Assembly: GCA_011390645.1 (NCBI GenBank)
Contig: JAABRY010000023.1
Location: 1-35,191 of the forward strand
Direction of reading: 5' to 3'
Length of the DNA stretch: 35,191 bases
Source: Gemmatimonadota bacterium
Lineage (GTDB): Bacteria > Gemmatimonadota > Gemmatimonadetes > Gemmatimonadales > GWC2-71-9
The notes under the pieces were generated by a model. That model searched no databases. It was not told the origin of the DNA and was given only the letters and a program-made list of their open reading frames with translations. Of this stretch, positions 3,305-8,955 are shown one piece after another. Every line of letters begins with the position of its first letter. Within the stretch, counting starts at the first letter, position 1. The translations under genes were made by a program, and so were the position numbers.

Positions 3305-6217
3305 ATGCCTGCACCAATCCCCACACCCGAGCACGTCGCGCACGCCCACGCGCGCCTCATTCACGACCTCGGCGGCGCCGCCTGCGTGGTTCCGGTCCCC
3401 GCCGCCCTCCCGATGATCGCTGCCGAAGTGGGCGCGCTCGGCTCGCTCCCGTGTTGGAGCGTCATGGCCTCACCACGCGAGGTGTCCCAACTCGCCCGCA
3501 CCTTGGCCCGACATGGAGATGTCGGAATGCTGATCGGCACGGACAACCGGACCGACGCCACGTCGTTCGCGATCACCCTCGCCCCGGTTGCAGTCACCGT
3601 GTGCCCTGTGCTCTCGCCGACACCGCTCGCCTTGCAGCGGCTTGCCGCACGACGCCTCGACGGCCTCGTCCCGCTCGAAGCGGCGGTGTTCGCTGCCCAG
3701 GCACTCGACATCGATGCTGCCGGTCGCCGCGCCTTCCGCATGCTGCACGGCGTGCTGCAGGAGATGGTGCTCGCGCTCCCCACCGCGATTCCCGTGGCCG
3801 ATCGTCACGCGTGGGCCCTCCTGCAGGCGACGCGTCTGCTCTTCCTCCGGTTCGTGGAAGTCGAGGGATGGCTCGATGGTCGACCCGACTTCCTGAGTAC
3901 CCTCATGGACGAGGCCTGTCGGAAAGGGCGTGATCCAGCGCGCCATCTACTGCATCCCCTCTTCTTCGGGACCCTCAACACCCCACCATCGGGGCGATCG
4001 CGACTCGCACGTGCCTTCGGGACGATCCCGTTCCTCAATGGTGGGCTCTTCGAGGCACATCCCATCGAACGAGCGCGGCGGTGGCCGCTGCCGACGGAGG
4101 CATGGTTTCGACTCGTCGCCTTGCTGGTTGACCAGATCGAGGTCACGCTCGATGCTGACGGGGTGGACGAACGGGTCACCCCGGAGTTGCTCGGGCGCGT
4201 CTTCGAAGGGGTGATGGACCCCGAGGCACGCCGCGACGCTGGGGCCTTCTACACCCCACCGACACTTGTGCGCGCGATCGTCCGCGAAGCACTCGCCTGC
4301 CACCTCGCACCGCGTCTCCAGCGCAGTGAATCCGTGCTTGCCGACGCCCTCGAGGATCCGGACCCTCCGCTCCAGCGCGCCCTGCTCGACCTGCGCATCC
4401 TTGACCCGGCTGTTGGGTCGGGAGCGTTTCTCGTCGGCGCGCTTGATCTGCTCCACGGGCCAGCTCCCCGCGACGCCAGGCGTGTGCGCCACCTGGTCAC
4501 CCGGCGGCTCTTCGGCGTCGATCGGCATCCGGGAGCCGTGCGGCTGACCGAGCTCCGCCTCTGGCTCGAAACTCTGCGAGCCATGCGTGGACGCACTCCA
4601 GCAGCGGTGACACCGTTGCCGAACCTTGATGTGAGCATCCGAGCAGGTGATTCGCTGCTCGACCCGCTGCACGGACATCCGCTCGCGCCACGCGCCGCCC
4701 TGGGACTCACGGCAGAGCGTCGCGCCGTCGTCAGCAGTCACGGGGCCGAGAAACGGGTGGCGCTGCGCGCGTTGCGTCGCGCCGAGCGGACCGCACTCGC
4801 CGCAGCGCTTGAGGAACGCGAAGCGTCCCTGCAACACGCCCTTCGGGATCTTGATGATGGAGCCACGACCCCGTCCTTCTGGGGGGAGACGCTTCCCACT
4901 TCCGCCACGGTGCAGCGCCGCCGTGCACATCTCCGTGAAGTGCTCCGAGCGGTGCGTGCGGAATCACGCAGTCTGGCGCGCGATACGTCGTCAGCCCCCT
5001 TCGCGATCGAATCGGCCTTCGCACCTGTCATGGCGCAGCGCGGCGGCTTCGACCTGATCCTCGCCAACCCGCCATGGGTCCGGGCGGAACGACTGCCGCA
5101 GGCCACGCGCCGTGCGTTGGGCGCCCGGTACCGGTGGTGGCGCGGGAGTGGGCAGGGATTCCGCCACCTCCCGGATCTCGCCATTGCCTTCCTCGAGCGC
5201 GGCGTGGAAGCGCTCGCCCCCGGCGGCACCCTTGCCTACCTCCTCCCAGCCAAGGTGCTGACCGCCGACTACGCCCTGGTGGCACGCCGCGCGCTGGCCG
5301 ATCGCCTGACCTTGCATCGCGTGGCCGACCTGGGCGACGATCCGCGCGCAGGCTTCGACGCGACCACCTATCCTCTGGCCCTGGTGGCATCACGCCGTCC
5401 CCCCCCCAGCGGGCATGGGGTTCACCGTCGCCTCACCGCAGACGCCCCACCAATCCCGCAGGCGGAATGGGCCGCACGCAACCACTGGTCGCTCGCCGAT
5501 CCGGCACTCCAGCGCGTGATGCGGCGTCTGTCCACCCGGTGGCCCCCAGTGCAAGCCACCCATCCACCCCGCCTCGGCGTCAAGACCGGAGCCAACGATG
5601 CCTTCCTCGACCCGCCTGAGGCCCTCGCACCGTGGACGCGCCCGGCAGTTCGCGGTCGTGACCTCGGCGCCGAGGGCGTCACCATTCGGCATCGTTTGCT
5701 GTGGCCTGCCGATGCCCGAGGACAACCCTGGGATCGCCTGCCTGCCGCCGTTGCGGCACACCTGAGTGCACATCGTACCCGCCTCGAGGCAAGGTCGGAC
5801 AATATCGACCATCTCTGGTGGCGACTTTTCCGGACCGATGCGGCAACCGCGGTTCATCGCGTGGTCTGGTCGGACCTCGCACGCACCCTGCGCCCTACAG
5901 CGGCACTGCCACCAGATGCCGTACCACTGAACAGTTGCTACGTGATTGCGGAGCGAAGTGCCGCCGGTGCGGAGGCGCTTGCACGCTGGCTGGGTACGCC
6001 ATGGTTACGTGCCATGGCCCGGATGGCAGCGGAACCCGCCGCGAGCGGGCATCATCGCTTCGGGGCACGGGCAGTCGGGGGGTTGCCCCTCCCGCCCACA
6101 TTCGCCGACGCCGTCCAGGGTACGCCTGCCGGGGTGGACACGCGTGCGGCCGAATTGCTCGAGCTCACCCGTGCCGAACAGGAGCTGCTGCGCGATGTGG
6201 CCTCGGATTGTCGCTGA
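3305..6217 (+). CDS. Eco57I/PglX-like N6-adenine DNA methyltransferase
   Basis: The protein has 970 residues. After a small N-terminal region (about 1-110) comes a helical domain (about 130-260) with LLFLRFVEVEGWL and IPFLNGGLFE, typical of type IIG and BREX PglX-type enzymes. EARRDAGAFYTP leads into SAM motif I, DPAVGSGAF near residue 367, and the catalytic NPPW is near residue 588. A charged helical insert lies between. The C-terminal third has GVKTGANDAFL, the usual opening of the target-recognition domain. It should methylate adenine N6 in a specific site. I see no convincing PD-(D/E)xK nuclease motif, so it may be modification-only. A C9 run at 5399-5407 codes Pro-Pro-Pro after the catalytic core. 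The gene overlaps the downstream helicase by 23 bases, which argues for a joint function. Confidence 0.85.
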   Translation: MPAPIPTPEHVAHAHARLIHDLGGAACVVPVPAALPMIAAEVGALGSLPCWSVMASPREVSQLARTLARHGDVGMLIGTDNRTDATSFAITLAPVAVTVCPVLSPTPLALQRLAARRLDGLVPLEAAVFAAQALDIDAAGRRAFRMLHGVLQEMVLALPTAIPVADRHAWALLQATRLLFLRFVEVEGWLDGRPDFLSTLMDEACRKGRDPARHLLHPLFFGTLNTPPSGRSRLARAFGTIPFLNGGLFEAHPIERARRWPLPTEAWFRLVALLVDQIEVTLDADGVDERVTPELLGRVFEGVMDPEARRDAGAFYTPPTLVRAIVREALACHLAPRLQRSESVLADALEDPDPPLQRALLDLRILDPAVGSGAFLVGALDLLHGPAPRDARRVRHLVTRRLFGVDRHPGAVRLTELRLWLETLRAMRGRTPAAVTPLPNLDVSIRAGDSLLDPLHGHPLAPRAALGLTAERRAVVSSHGAEKRVALRALRRAERTALAAALEEREASLQHALRDLDDGATTPSFWGETLPTSATVQRRRAHLREVLRAVRAESRSLARDTSSAPFAIESAFAPVMAQRGGFDLILANPPWVRAERLPQATRRALGARYRWWRGSGQGFRHLPDLAIAFLERGVEALAPGGTLAYLLPAKVLTADYALVARRALADRLTLHRVADLGDDPRAGFDATTYPLALVASRRPPPSGHGVHRRLTADAPPIPQAEWAARNHWSLADPALQRVMRRLSTRWPPVQATHPPRLGVKTGANDAFLDPPEALAPWTRPAVRGRDLGAEGVTIRHRLLWPADARGQPWDRLPAAVAAHLSAHRTRLEARSDNIDHLWWRLFRTDAATAVHRVVWSDLARTLRPTAALPPDAVPLNSCYVIAERSAAGAEALARWLGTPWLRAMARMAAEPAASGHHRFGARAVGGLPLPPTFADAVQGTPAGVDTRAAELLELTRAEQELLRDVASDCR

Positions 6218-8357
6218 TGCGCTCGACATCGCGCCGCACCCACCTCCATTGCGGGGCGTGGACATCGCCTGCGACGCGAGCCTGTGGCAGATTGCCTCCC
6301 GGCAGGCATGGCGTCCCTCCGAGCATGAGGGCGCGCCGCCGGCGTGGCTGCGGGCGCATCAGGTCCCATCGTGGCGGCGCAGTGTCGCCGCGCTCCAGGT
6401 GTACGGCGGGGCGATCCTCGCCGAGCCGGTGGGTGCTGGCAAGACCTGGATTGCGCTCGCCGTCGCCAGCGCACTCGGTGGACGGGCGACGGTGGTGGCC
6501 CCCGCCGTGCTCCTCCCACAATGGCAGGCCGCTGCCGCCGGACTTTGCCTCAGGGTGGAATGGCATTCGCTCGAGCGGTGCAGCCGCGGTGTCCCCCCCC
6601 CTGACAGCGGTGGCATCGCCATCGTGGACGAAGCGCACAGACTGAGGCACCTCGGCACACGGCGAGCCGTCGTCGTGGCGGACTGGCTCGCTCGACGACC
6701 CGCGTTGCTGCTGACCGCCACCCCCATCGTGAACCGACGCGCCGACCTCCTCGCCCTGCTGCAATTGGTGGTGGGCGACGGCACCTTGCGACATGACGGC
6801 GTGCCCTCACTGGAGACGCTCGCCAGCGCGGACATGCCTCCCCCTGCACTTCGGCGACTCGTGGTGCGCACGATGTCGGAGACCAGCGGCACGCCGCTCG
6901 TCACTCGGCGCTTCCCCATCTCGCCGGAAGAGCACCAGCGTGCGGGCAGAGCCGCCGAGGGCATCGCTTCCCTGCGCCTCGCCACCACCGCAGGAACCAG
7001 GCGCCTCCTGCACGGTGTCCTCGCCGACGCGGCCGCGTCGAGTGATGCAGCATGGCAGGCCGCACTGCAGCGGAGCGACGCGCTCGTGCAGCAGGCCAGC
7101 GAGGCTGGGGGACTCTCGCGCGAGATGCTCCGACGCTTCGCCGGTTCAGCGTGTGACCAAGGCGTGTTGTGGGCGCTTGTCGCACCTGAAGCGCAGGATC
7201 GCCCGGTCCTGCTGCCGACAGAGGACCTTCCGACGTTGCGGGCCCTGCGCGCAGTACCGACCGCGGATGAGCACTGGCTGGCGGAGGTCAACCTGCTGCT
7301 GGCCGATCACGCGGTGACCGTCCTCTTCTGCCGCCATCGTGCCACGGCACATCTGCTCCGCCGTCACCTTGGGGACGCCGTGGCCTGGGTGACCGGGCAT
7401 GAGGCCGGCCTCGGTCCGCACCGTGCCCCCCGCCACCAGGTGCTCGCGGCATTCGGTCCGAGGCGCACAGAGTGGCGAGTACGCCATGCGCTACCGACGG
7501 TCCTGATTGCGACCGACGTCGCTGCGGAAGGGCTTGACCTCCAGGCCGCCTCGCGGCTGGTGCATCTCGATCTCCCGTGGACCGCCATGCGCCGTGACCA
7601 GCGGAACGGTCGCGTGCGACGTCCGGGGCAAGCTGCCGAGGTCGTGGATATCATCGAACGGCATCCCCCCCCCGCATTGGAGCGTCTCCTCCGACTCGGC
7701 TGGCGAATCCGCACCAAGGCAACGATCGCCGACCGATGGCTCGACGCGATGCAGCACGGCACGGATCAGCTCATGGTCGCCGCGACGCACGAGACTGCCA
7801 CGCGCGACGTGGAACGTCTCTGGCTGGTGCGGATCGGGCATGGGGCCACGCCTCGGGGGACGATATTGGTGGCATCGGGTCGTGGTACCACATGGGTCCC
7901 GACGGCGGGAGAGGTGACACCGATGCTCGCACGGTCGGTAGCGACCCCGAGAGTTGCACGTCCTGTCGATCACGAGACGACCGGACGCGACGTGCTCGCC
8001 GCCGCACATCGCGCGCTCGCCGTGCCCAGCCTGTTTCCAGCCCTCTCTGCCCGCATCCAACGTCTGGCACGAAGGGTCGGGCATCGGCGCGACATGGCAG
8101 GGCTGGTCGCGCTCGACGGACTGCTCGCGCACCTCCACGTCCCGGGGCCCCTCGGTCTCCGTCGCGAGCTGGAGCGGCTCCGGCATGCACCGGACGCGGA
8201 GCTGCTCGCACATCGGCTGCCGAAAAGAGTGCAGCTCGGGCCACCGGTCGCGCGGATCATCGCCTCGGTGATGGTGGATGGGGGCCGGTCCCCGCTACGT
8301 TCCCGGCATGACCAGCTACTCGACCGTGCTCTTCGACCTCGACGGGACGCTGATTGA
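6195..8357 (+). CDS. SNF2-like superfamily 2 helicase/translocase paired with the methyltransferase
   Basis: I place the start at ATG 6195, preceded by AGGAG at 6180-6184; the protein then has 720 residues. All core SF2 motifs are present: Walker A GAGKT near residue 80, DEAH near 145, TATP near 174, ATDVAAEGLDL near 439, and motif VI RNGRVRRPGQ near 470, the SNF2/RapA style arginine finger. The C-terminal 200 residues are helical and unrecognised. There is no nuclease or PLD motif. ATP-driven translocation on duplex DNA is expected from the family. The 23-base overlap with the methyltransferase suggests a complex or joint pathway, as in DISARM (DrmD with DrmMI), but the other DISARM genes are missing. 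C9 runs at 6593-6601 and 7665-7673 code Pro-Pro-Pro. The 3' end overlaps the HAD gene by 50 bases. Confidence 0.85.
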   Translation: MWPRIVADALDIAPHPPPLRGVDIACDASLWQIASRQAWRPSEHEGAPPAWLRAHQVPSWRRSVAALQVYGGAILAEPVGAGKTWIALAVASALGGRATVVAPAVLLPQWQAAAAGLCLRVEWHSLERCSRGVPPPDSGGIAIVDEAHRLRHLGTRRAVVVADWLARRPALLLTATPIVNRRADLLALLQLVVGDGTLRHDGVPSLETLASADMPPPALRRLVVRTMSETSGTPLVTRRFPISPEEHQRAGRAAEGIASLRLATTAGTRRLLHGVLADAAASSDAAWQAALQRSDALVQQASEAGGLSREMLRRFAGSACDQGVLWALVAPEAQDRPVLLPTEDLPTLRALRAVPTADEHWLAEVNLLLADHAVTVLFCRHRATAHLLRRHLGDAVAWVTGHEAGLGPHRAPRHQVLAAFGPRRTEWRVRHALPTVLIATDVAAEGLDLQAASRLVHLDLPWTAMRRDQRNGRVRRPGQAAEVVDIIERHPPPALERLLRLGWRIRTKATIADRWLDAMQHGTDQLMVAATHETATRDVERLWLVRIGHGATPRGTILVASGRGTTWVPTAGEVTPMLARSVATPRVARPVDHETTGRDVLAAAHRALAVPSLFPALSARIQRLARRVGHRRDMAGLVALDGLLAHLHVPGPLGLRRELERLRHAPDAELLAHRLPKRVQLGPPVARIIASVMVDGGRSPLRSRHDQLLDRALRPRRDAD

Positions 8358-8955
8358 CTCAGTGGACCTGATCGTGGACAGCTATCAGCACACCTTCAAG
8401 ACGCATGGACTGCGCGAACACTCGCGGGACGAGATCGTCGCCGGGATCGGCACGCCACTGCGCACTGTCTTCGGGGCCCTCGGCGCGAGTCCGGATGAGA
8501 TGACGACCTGGATCGCAACGTACCGCGAGTTCAACCTCGCCCATCACGATGCGCGCGTGCGGGCGTTTCCCGGCGCGGTGGACATGGTACGCGCCCTGCA
8601 CGCCGACGGCCGGCGACTCGGCTTGGTCACCAGCAAGAACCGCGCGGGTGCGCATCGTGGGCTGGCGCTGGTGGGGCTGGGAGATGTGATGGAAGTGGTG
8701 GTCGGTGCGGACGATGTGGAGCACCCCAAGCCCCATCCGGAGCCGGTGCTGCGCGCGCTTGCCGAGCTGGGAGTCTCCACCGACGGCGCCATTTTCATCG
8801 GCGACTCCGTACACGACCTCCACAGCGGTCGGGCCGCTGGAGTCGCCACGATGGGAATCACGTGGGGCCCCTTTGCCCACGCCGATCTGATTTGCGCGGG
8901 CCCGGATCATTGCTGTGCCTCACCGGCTGAGGTCATTCGGATCCTCGGCCTCTAG
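8308..8955 (+). CDS. HAD-family hydrolase (phosphoglycolate phosphatase / PpaX-like)
   Basis: The 215-residue protein has the four HAD motifs in order: DLDGT with nucleophile Asp near the N-terminus, VTSKN (motif II), KPHPEP (motif III Lys) and GDSVHDL (motif IV acidic pair). The helical cap between motifs I and II is the type found in Gph and PpaX phosphatases. It probably hydrolyses a small phosphate ester, such as 2-phosphoglycolate, or pyrophosphate. ATG 8308 lies 50 bases inside the end of the helicase gene; no good ribosome site is visible, so its translation may depend on the helicase. It ends six bases from the convergent argR stop, with no hairpin between. I see no functional link to DNA modification. 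Confidence 0.85.
   Translation: MTSYSTVLFDLDGTLIDSVDLIVDSYQHTFKTHGLREHSRDEIVAGIGTPLRTVFGALGASPDEMTTWIATYREFNLAHHDARVRAFPGAVDMVRALHADGRRLGLVTSKNRAGAHRGLALVGLGDVMEVVVGADDVEHPKPHPEPVLRALAELGVSTDGAIFIGDSVHDLHSGRAAGVATMGITWGPFAHADLICAGPDHCCASPAEVIRILGL

Follow-up and report, generated by a model that had tools for sequence, protein, structure and literature searches.

A methylase and an SNF2 helicase are found, among further subunits, in each of type-3 BREX, DISARM class 1 and ARMADA. In DISARM class 1 these two enzymes, DrmMI and DrmD, occur with DrmA, DrmB and DrmC. ARMADA, according to the available part of its description, is composed of ArmA (BrxHII/RapA-like), ArmB (PglX-like) and ArmC (YprA-like), with ArmD in type II (PMC12458937). 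The same part of that source reports that ARMADA no longer protects when the Walker motifs of the SNF2 protein or the NPPW of the methylase are mutated, and that a GxG mutation in the methylase leads to partial loss only (PMC12458937). Here we analyze two adjacent genes, coding for an Eco57I/PglX-like N6-adenine DNA methyltransferase (the methylase) and a RapA-like Swi2/Snf2 helicase, from a Gemmatimonadota bacterium of the order Gemmatimonadales (GenBank assembly GCA_011390645.1, contig JAABRY010000023.1). The window is the whole stretch of 35,191 nucleotides analyzed from this contig. The pair is best read as one functional unit, since the genes are jointly present or absent, show correlated divergence and, in the window, overlap. 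We give about an even chance to the idea that it is a two-protein 'mark and translocate' module, core to the order and passed on vertically, for the nuclease-free exclusion of unmarked DNA. The observations behind this idea are intact invariant motifs, near-universality, joint presence and absence, correlated divergence and a mostly conserved neighbourhood.

The survey covered a set of 61 genomes (the genome itself and 60 relatives) and an even sample of 298 genomes of the phylum, searched at E ≤ 1e-30 with two to three candidates scored per genome. Our results indicate that 152 out of 173 Gemmatimonadales genomes carry both genes, 16 carry neither, five carry only the methylase and none only the helicase. 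The total of 173 is made up of 157 genomes with a methylase match (177 minus 20 of the same class) and the 16 without one, which are taken as complete because the list, sorted by kinship, extends to genomes of the same class. The five genomes with the methylase only are G109, G137, G238, G285 and G308; in G285 the methylase lies at a contig end and the helicase may be merely unassembled, and G308 is called negative from its absence among the helicase matches, as the 20 genomes listed without a helicase end within the order. Co-occurrence of the two genes gives a Fisher p of ~1e-18, computed over genomes that are related rather than independent. The pair recurs alone, as the preliminary description of the window had proposed to check, and its homologues are not regularly accompanied by drm or brx genes. 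In the set of 61, the methylase was found in 57 genomes and the helicase in 58 (with weak matches in two, G003 and G021), RecA in 53 and type I specificity subunits in 13. When only the 43 good-quality genomes are counted, RecA is present in 43, the methylase in 42 and the helicase in 42. Genomes of the order that lack the pair are often small, as expected of a dispensable system: 6 out of 16 are at most 2.4 Mb, compared with 5 out of the 157 with the methylase (Fisher p 8e-5, which ignores relatedness, four of the six small genomes belonging to one genus). Elsewhere in the class, nine genomes of families f4 and f9 have strong methylase orthologues (E ≤ 1e-212) and eleven more have weaker matches. 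Judged by coordinates, the helicase adjoins the methylase in all four f9 genomes and in G297 (f4), the places in the other four being only partly listed. The 7.5-Mb genome G109 (locus L189), which gave no match to the helicase, has its methylase within an open frame of 1402 codons, of which about 330 are additional and precede the matching part.

Gene order was read at 41 loci, namely the window and 40 relatives hand-picked for long contigs among the 56 methylase-bearing relatives, whose genes were called by a codon-usage caller. The methylase is followed directly by the helicase in 39 of them, and genes intervene only in L083 (nine genes) and L088 (one predicted open reading frame, ORF). No other gene family was found in more than 26 of the 41 loci, not all families being annotated. 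The self-contained methylase/SNF2 pair of the preliminary description is borne out. A HAD/PpaX-like gene is present in 26 loci and immediately follows the helicase in 21 of these. On the upstream side, NUDIX, LD-carboxypeptidase, alpha/beta hydrolase and glycosyltransferase genes are among the families found, with other neighbours in some lineages. Pairwise identities of methylase and helicase are closely correlated (r = 0.89, 820 pairs). For the methylase and neighbouring families with at least 45 pairs, r ranges from 0.60 to 0.94, and for ArgH it is 0.21 over 21 within-genus pairs. Because methylase distances track those of most neighbouring genes, we consider the pair to be vertically inherited; this tracking, the order-wide presence and the partial synteny led us to reject a recent horizontal acquisition. 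Within the genus, the helicase has the lowest mean identity of 14 families (0.474), and the methylase the second lowest (0.566), close to NUDIX (0.568), with the others at 0.645 to 0.837 (3 to 21 pairs). The nine genes between methylase and helicase at L083 (L083:4109-15493) include those for Hypoth_ymh/HEPN-like and 495-aa Cas1-family proteins, and no direct repeats of at least 22 nt were found in this interval.

In the window, the codon-usage caller selects the same two ORFs, and both proteins match Pfam families above curated cut-offs (Eco57I and N6_Mtase in the methylase, Helicase_C and SNF2-rel_dom in the helicase; Table 1). The coordinates, too, agree with the preliminary description, which had noted a 970- and a 720-residue protein encoded with a 23-base overlap among ordinary genes. 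The mechanical ORF of the helicase starts further upstream, at TTG 5946. The overlap suggests translational coupling of the two genes. Across 40 methylase sequences, D367, P368, A369, G371, G373, F375, L376 and the whole of NPPW are invariant; in a wider 40-row set with relatives from outside the order, some residues of motif I and NPPW are only nearly so. In the helicase, T176 is likewise invariant over 39 rows. Motif conservation of both genes over an order far exceeds that of chance ORFs. The pair is flanked upstream by a HpnB/CruG-like glycosyltransferase gene and downstream by genes for a HAD/PpaX-like phosphatase, ArgR and ArgH. The PpaX-like gene (mechanical ORF 8278-8955) overlaps the end of the helicase by 80 nt, and an in-frame ATG at 8308 still leaves an overlap of 50 nt.

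Table 1. Features of the methylase/helicase pair and their positions in the window.
Feature	Position	Strand	Basis or remark
Eco57I/PglX-like N6-adenine DNA methyltransferase gene	3305..6217	+	ATG start, 970 aa
Methylase N-terminal domain, residues ~1-115	3305..3649	+	predicted topology; column scan
S-adenosylmethionine (AdoMet)-binding motif I, residues 367-376	4403..4432	+	invariant residues in 40-row alignment
Catalytic motif IV NPPW, residues 588-591	5066..5077	+	invariant in 40 rows
Putative target-recognition domain, residues ~750-930	5552..6094	+	position and LGVKTG motif
RapA-like Swi2/Snf2 helicase (translocase) gene	6195..8357	+	ATG 6195, 720 aa
Methylase/helicase overlap	6195..6217	+	23 nt
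Walker A GAGKT, residues 80-84	6432..6446	+	G80, G82, K83 invariant, 39 rows
DEAH box, residues 145-148	6627..6638	+	D145, E146, H148 invariant, 39 rows
Helicase motif VI QRNGR, residues 469-473	7599..7613	+	Q469, R470, G472, R473 invariant, 39 rows

Having motif I and NPPW as well as a target domain at its C-terminus, the methylase is a predicted gamma-class N6-adenine methylase of the CamA/BseCI/PglX group. Its AlphaFold model has a mean pLDDT (predicted local distance difference test score) of 88.5. Among the Foldseek matches of this model, CamA is best by E-value, followed by BrxX/PglX, M.BseCI, MmeI, DrdV and BpuSI; of the matches listed, MmeI has the highest template modelling (TM) score by query length (0.48-0.49). 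The nearest solved relatives by profile are M.BseCI and CamA. We presume the target-recognition label from position and the LGVKTG motif, as in PglX and type IIG enzymes. Identities of the target domain and the catalytic parts are correlated (r = 0.87, 780 pairs, lowest identity 0.286), and the target domain diverges somewhat faster (identity ratio 0.85 on average, minimum 0.65, in a comparison without a matched defence-system control). In L089, L184, L185 (genus g38) and L187 (genus g60), the target domain is an ORF of its own; in these four split methylases, from at least two genera, both ORFs are kept with the helicase next to them, a natural M-S fission like that of type I enzymes.

The N-terminal domain is predicted to consist of a helix, three strands, a helix and two strands, an order reminiscent of the PD-(D/E)XK core, although conserved catalytic residues are missing. 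Over residues 1-115 of 40 rows, counting the columns occupied in the protein of the window, no D, E or K column reaches 50%, and at column 111, D and E combined just do; residues 1-110 of the order's methylases have no conserved D/E or K column, and the D/E columns 132 and 137 (93%) fall in the helices that follow the domain. Sister-clade domains in L156 and L160 carry E-x-K at a seemingly equivalent strand. The domain may be a degenerate nuclease or may serve in binding. The model of the helicase (pLDDT 77.6) shows a Swi2/Snf2 motor, with Foldseek matches to ISW1, Chd1, RapA and other SNF2 motors, and the closest solved relatives by profile are RapA proteins. Its tail (residues 511-720) is variable among relatives, and its best acidic columns are 570 (D/E 69%) and 656 (D/E 67%), with none higher. 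The column scan thus agrees with the preliminary description, which had seen no nuclease motif. We also rejected a plain type IIG enzyme with an active PD-(D/E)XK nuclease in the chain, an outcome that the preliminary description had named as refuting its proposal, as no conserved catalytic residues were found and only the topology is suggestive.

The nearest profile families are DrmMI, type IIG and PglX for the methylase, and DrmD, DpdE, HmaA and BrxH for the helicase. The profile comparison that the preliminary description had called for, made here with PADLOC and NCBIfam, gave only partial matches or scores far under the cut-offs. In PADLOC, the methylase scores best against DrmMI (97 bits) and type IIG (78.5 bits), and the helicase against DrmD (70 bits); each of these matches is partial. 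The helicase scores 69.8 and 67.3 bits against the NCBIfam DrmD models, which have cut-offs of 610 and 950, respectively, and the methylase scores 36 bits against the best PglX model, with a curated cut-off of 900. By these scores, both proteins are relatives, not members, of the DrmMI, PglX and DrmD families.

Partner genes of the larger systems are rare in the set of 61: DUF499 was found in 1 genome, MZB in 1, BrxC in 2 and DrmA (E ≤ 1e-20) in 3, with positive controls matched in 1, 8, 2 and 4, respectively, out of 14 named genomes. MZB, formerly DUF1998, is a mark of DrmB and YprA. The preliminary description had seen no other DISARM or BREX genes in the window, and these counts extend that picture. 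A set of drmA, drmB and drmC with the methylase was not found, drmC not having been searched for genome-wide; neither was a BREX-type PglZ at the pair's locus, nor a YprA-like helicase beside the pair, as judged from the lack of a constant third gene and from MZB as proxy. The DUF499 genome is G059, and the BrxC genomes are G041, where the gene sits ~190 kb from the pair, and G059. PglZ-domain ORFs occur in 51 of the 61 genomes. They are mostly 520-600 aa long and, judged by the coordinates listed, either share no contig with the pair or are separated from it by ~160 kb or more. From their size we take them to be PorX, and rejected all as BREX evidence because of their size and their distance from the pair. 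G055 has a strong match to DrmA, of 480.7 bits, at C1:711-713 kb, and its core pair is on contig C5. Matches to DrmA and MZB and weak matches to methylase and helicase cluster at ~697-713 kb of C1, which is probably a separate DISARM-like locus beside, not replacing, the core pair. Because the markers are rare and the real BREX and DISARM genes lie elsewhere, partners acting in trans are unlikely, although profiles can miss distant forms and the search did not extend to drmC. Membership in DISARM, BREX or ARMADA was rejected for the same rarity and for scores far under the curated cut-offs.

Relatives outside the order were placed in a quick tree of 73 methylases (midpoint root; Shimodaira-Hasegawa-like approximate likelihood ratio test, SH-aLRT), in which phylum names follow the submitters' titles, mostly of metagenome bins. 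One clade of 44 (SH-aLRT 100) holds 36 Gemmatimonadota, the window, one other row, three Myxococcota and three Pseudomonadota; the support for Gemmatimonadota as a single group is only 18. In the outsiders L120, L126, L137, L140 and L141, the helicase directly follows the methylase, and in L123 no helicase was found in the stretch examined. The other clade, of 29 rows, has a larger SNF2 helicase where one was seen (~1000-1150 aa; split in L169), and in all nine of its Bacteroidota loci the helicase precedes the methylase. In L149, L175 and L177, it comes after the methylase, separated from it by at least one gene. A 185-aa ORF without a Pfam or PADLOC match (L145:5066-5623), from a deeper lineage of the Gemmatimonadota, lies between the two genes and overlaps both. 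Plasmids of Nostoc, Microcystis and Deinococcus (L181, L182 and L183, not in the tree) also carry a more distant relative of the methylase together with a large gene related to the helicase. On these plasmids the two bracket variable genes (DUF262, SLATT, nucleotidyltransferase, hypothetical), as in a cargo slot, and in Nostoc a gene for viperin is located beyond the pair. A phage search returned 6 records, which match at most 31% of the query, and plasmid searches returned 203 and 93 records, all of them short of 80% query coverage. A single-sequence scan of genome contigs found no relatives; of an alignment-based scan, the best 80 matches were kept.

We propose that the methylase recognizes a DNA site via its own target domain, methylates adenine at N6 and so would mark the host chromosome, and that its RapA-like SNF2 partner acts with it by translocating along double-stranded DNA. 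At an unmethylated site, the methylase would recruit or license the translocase, which would then drive along the unmarked incoming DNA and block its replication or transcription without cutting. This reading implies a physical interaction of the two proteins, methylation at specific sites and an anti-invader outcome. The link to defence comes from the profile families nearest to both proteins, which are those of defence proteins, and the fast divergence of both genes together with their joint absence, often from small genomes, fits the exclusion of unmarked DNA. The effects of the ARMADA mutations and the distant relatives on plasmids likewise speak for it. However, there are several points against this idea. 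RecA-like ubiquity, mostly at one housekeeping neighbourhood, is untypical of a defence system, and such a near-universal, vertically inherited core locus, missed by the preliminary description, weakens the picture of mobile defence. No defence island was seen around the pair, no outlier among 780 pairs pointed to a swap of the target domain, and no conserved catalytic residues of a nuclease were found in either protein. In addition, the best structural match of the methylase by E-value, CamA, is an orphan methylase that promotes sporulation in Clostridioides difficile and is a core gene of its species. The PglZ of BREX is reportedly a nuclease. All four genes of type II ARMADA are required, according to the available part of PMC12458937. 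For these two reasons, no relative is known as a working bare pair.

A rival reading is a core epigenetic regulator, in which a CamA-like housekeeping methylase sets a genome-wide N6-adenine pattern controlling gene expression or replication. Its RapA-like partner would remove proteins or RNA polymerase from the DNA and so make sites accessible for methylation or reading. We regard this as possible and as less probable than exclusion. The ubiquity, vertical inheritance and mostly conserved locus of the pair fit a CamA-like role, as do a target domain diverging in step with the catalytic parts without a swap, CamA as the top structural match by E-value and the RapA proteins as best solved relatives of the helicase. 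Furthermore, by its presence in 157 of the 173 genomes of the order, its vertical inheritance and the lack of a detected nuclease, the methylase would rank as a core orphan methylase. However, defence proteins make up the nearest profile families of either gene, divergence is faster in both than in most of their neighbours, and they are jointly absent, often from small genomes; to our knowledge, known core orphan methylases have no dedicated helicase. One system may also serve both exclusion and epigenetic duty. A restriction-modification system that translocates and then cleaves, in the manner of type I or type ISP enzymes, seems improbable to us, whether its nuclease is encoded elsewhere or is a divergent active one in the N-terminal domain of the methylase or the tail of the helicase. 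The type IIG-like layout, with MmeI leading by query-length TM score and DrdV and BpuSI also listed, would suit it, as would the PD-(D/E)XK-like topology and the E-x-K of L156 and L160. Nevertheless, the column scans of methylase residues 1-110 and of the helicase tail gave no such site, columns 132 and 137 lie in the following helices, and no third gene family is present at over 26 of the 41 loci. Finally, the preliminary description had also considered a stray fragment of a larger system. That the pair is a decayed or stray piece of DISARM, ARMADA or BREX, non-functional or with partners in trans, is suggested by its homology to DrmMI, DrmD and PglX. It is very hard to reconcile with catalytic motifs that are invariant, the retention of the pair throughout an order, the occurrence of partner markers in 1-3 of 61 genomes and PglZ-domain proteins away from the pair.

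Exclusion of unmarked DNA by a mark-and-translocate module is thus the reading that we put forward. More tentatively, the order-wide core pair could be a minimal system of self/non-self DNA discrimination, with the SNF2 translocase itself as effector, and could represent the irreducible unit elaborated in type-3 BREX, ARMADA and DISARM class 1, domesticated here for an immune or epigenetic duty common to almost all species of the order. Among the listed papers on Gemmatimonadota, DISARM/BREX and methyltransferase-helicase pairs, subscription papers being outside the scope, we found no description of the pair, and 'gemmatimonad' is absent from the main text of a BREX survey (PMC12839542). The parts of the pair are of known kinds, and its stand-alone, order-wide core arrangement appears to be new. 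A lone pair throughout an order is a natural minimal system for finding the pair's own function. The pair is presumably also present in cultured Gemmatimonas, and would hence be experimentally accessible.

Compared with known systems, the pair has the same two enzyme types as DISARM class 1, although its DrmMI and DrmD matches are partial, the latter far below the cut-offs, and DrmA and MZB are rare. With ARMADA it shares a PglX-like methylase and a RapA-like SNF2 helicase (PMC12458937, available part), whereas the YprA-like third gene has no counterpart here. Type-3 BREX (BrxHII) and DUF499 BREX-related systems likewise combine a Swi2/Snf2 helicase with an N6 methylase, according to the available part of PMC12839542, and differ in DUF499, BrxC and PglZ. 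The overall domain layout is like that of the type IIG/IIL enzymes MmeI (TM 0.48-0.49 by query), DrdV and BpuSI, but the methylase here has no conserved nuclease residues and SNF2 is encoded separately. CamA has the best Foldseek E-value (5.2e-18; TM 0.69 by target and 0.43 by query) at 12% identity over the alignment, and the methylase here is longer, with its N-terminal domain, a helical linker and a dedicated SNF2 partner. The best reading of these sequence comparisons is a module akin to the methylase/SNF2 portion of DISARM class 1, ARMADA and type-3 BREX, yet standing alone.

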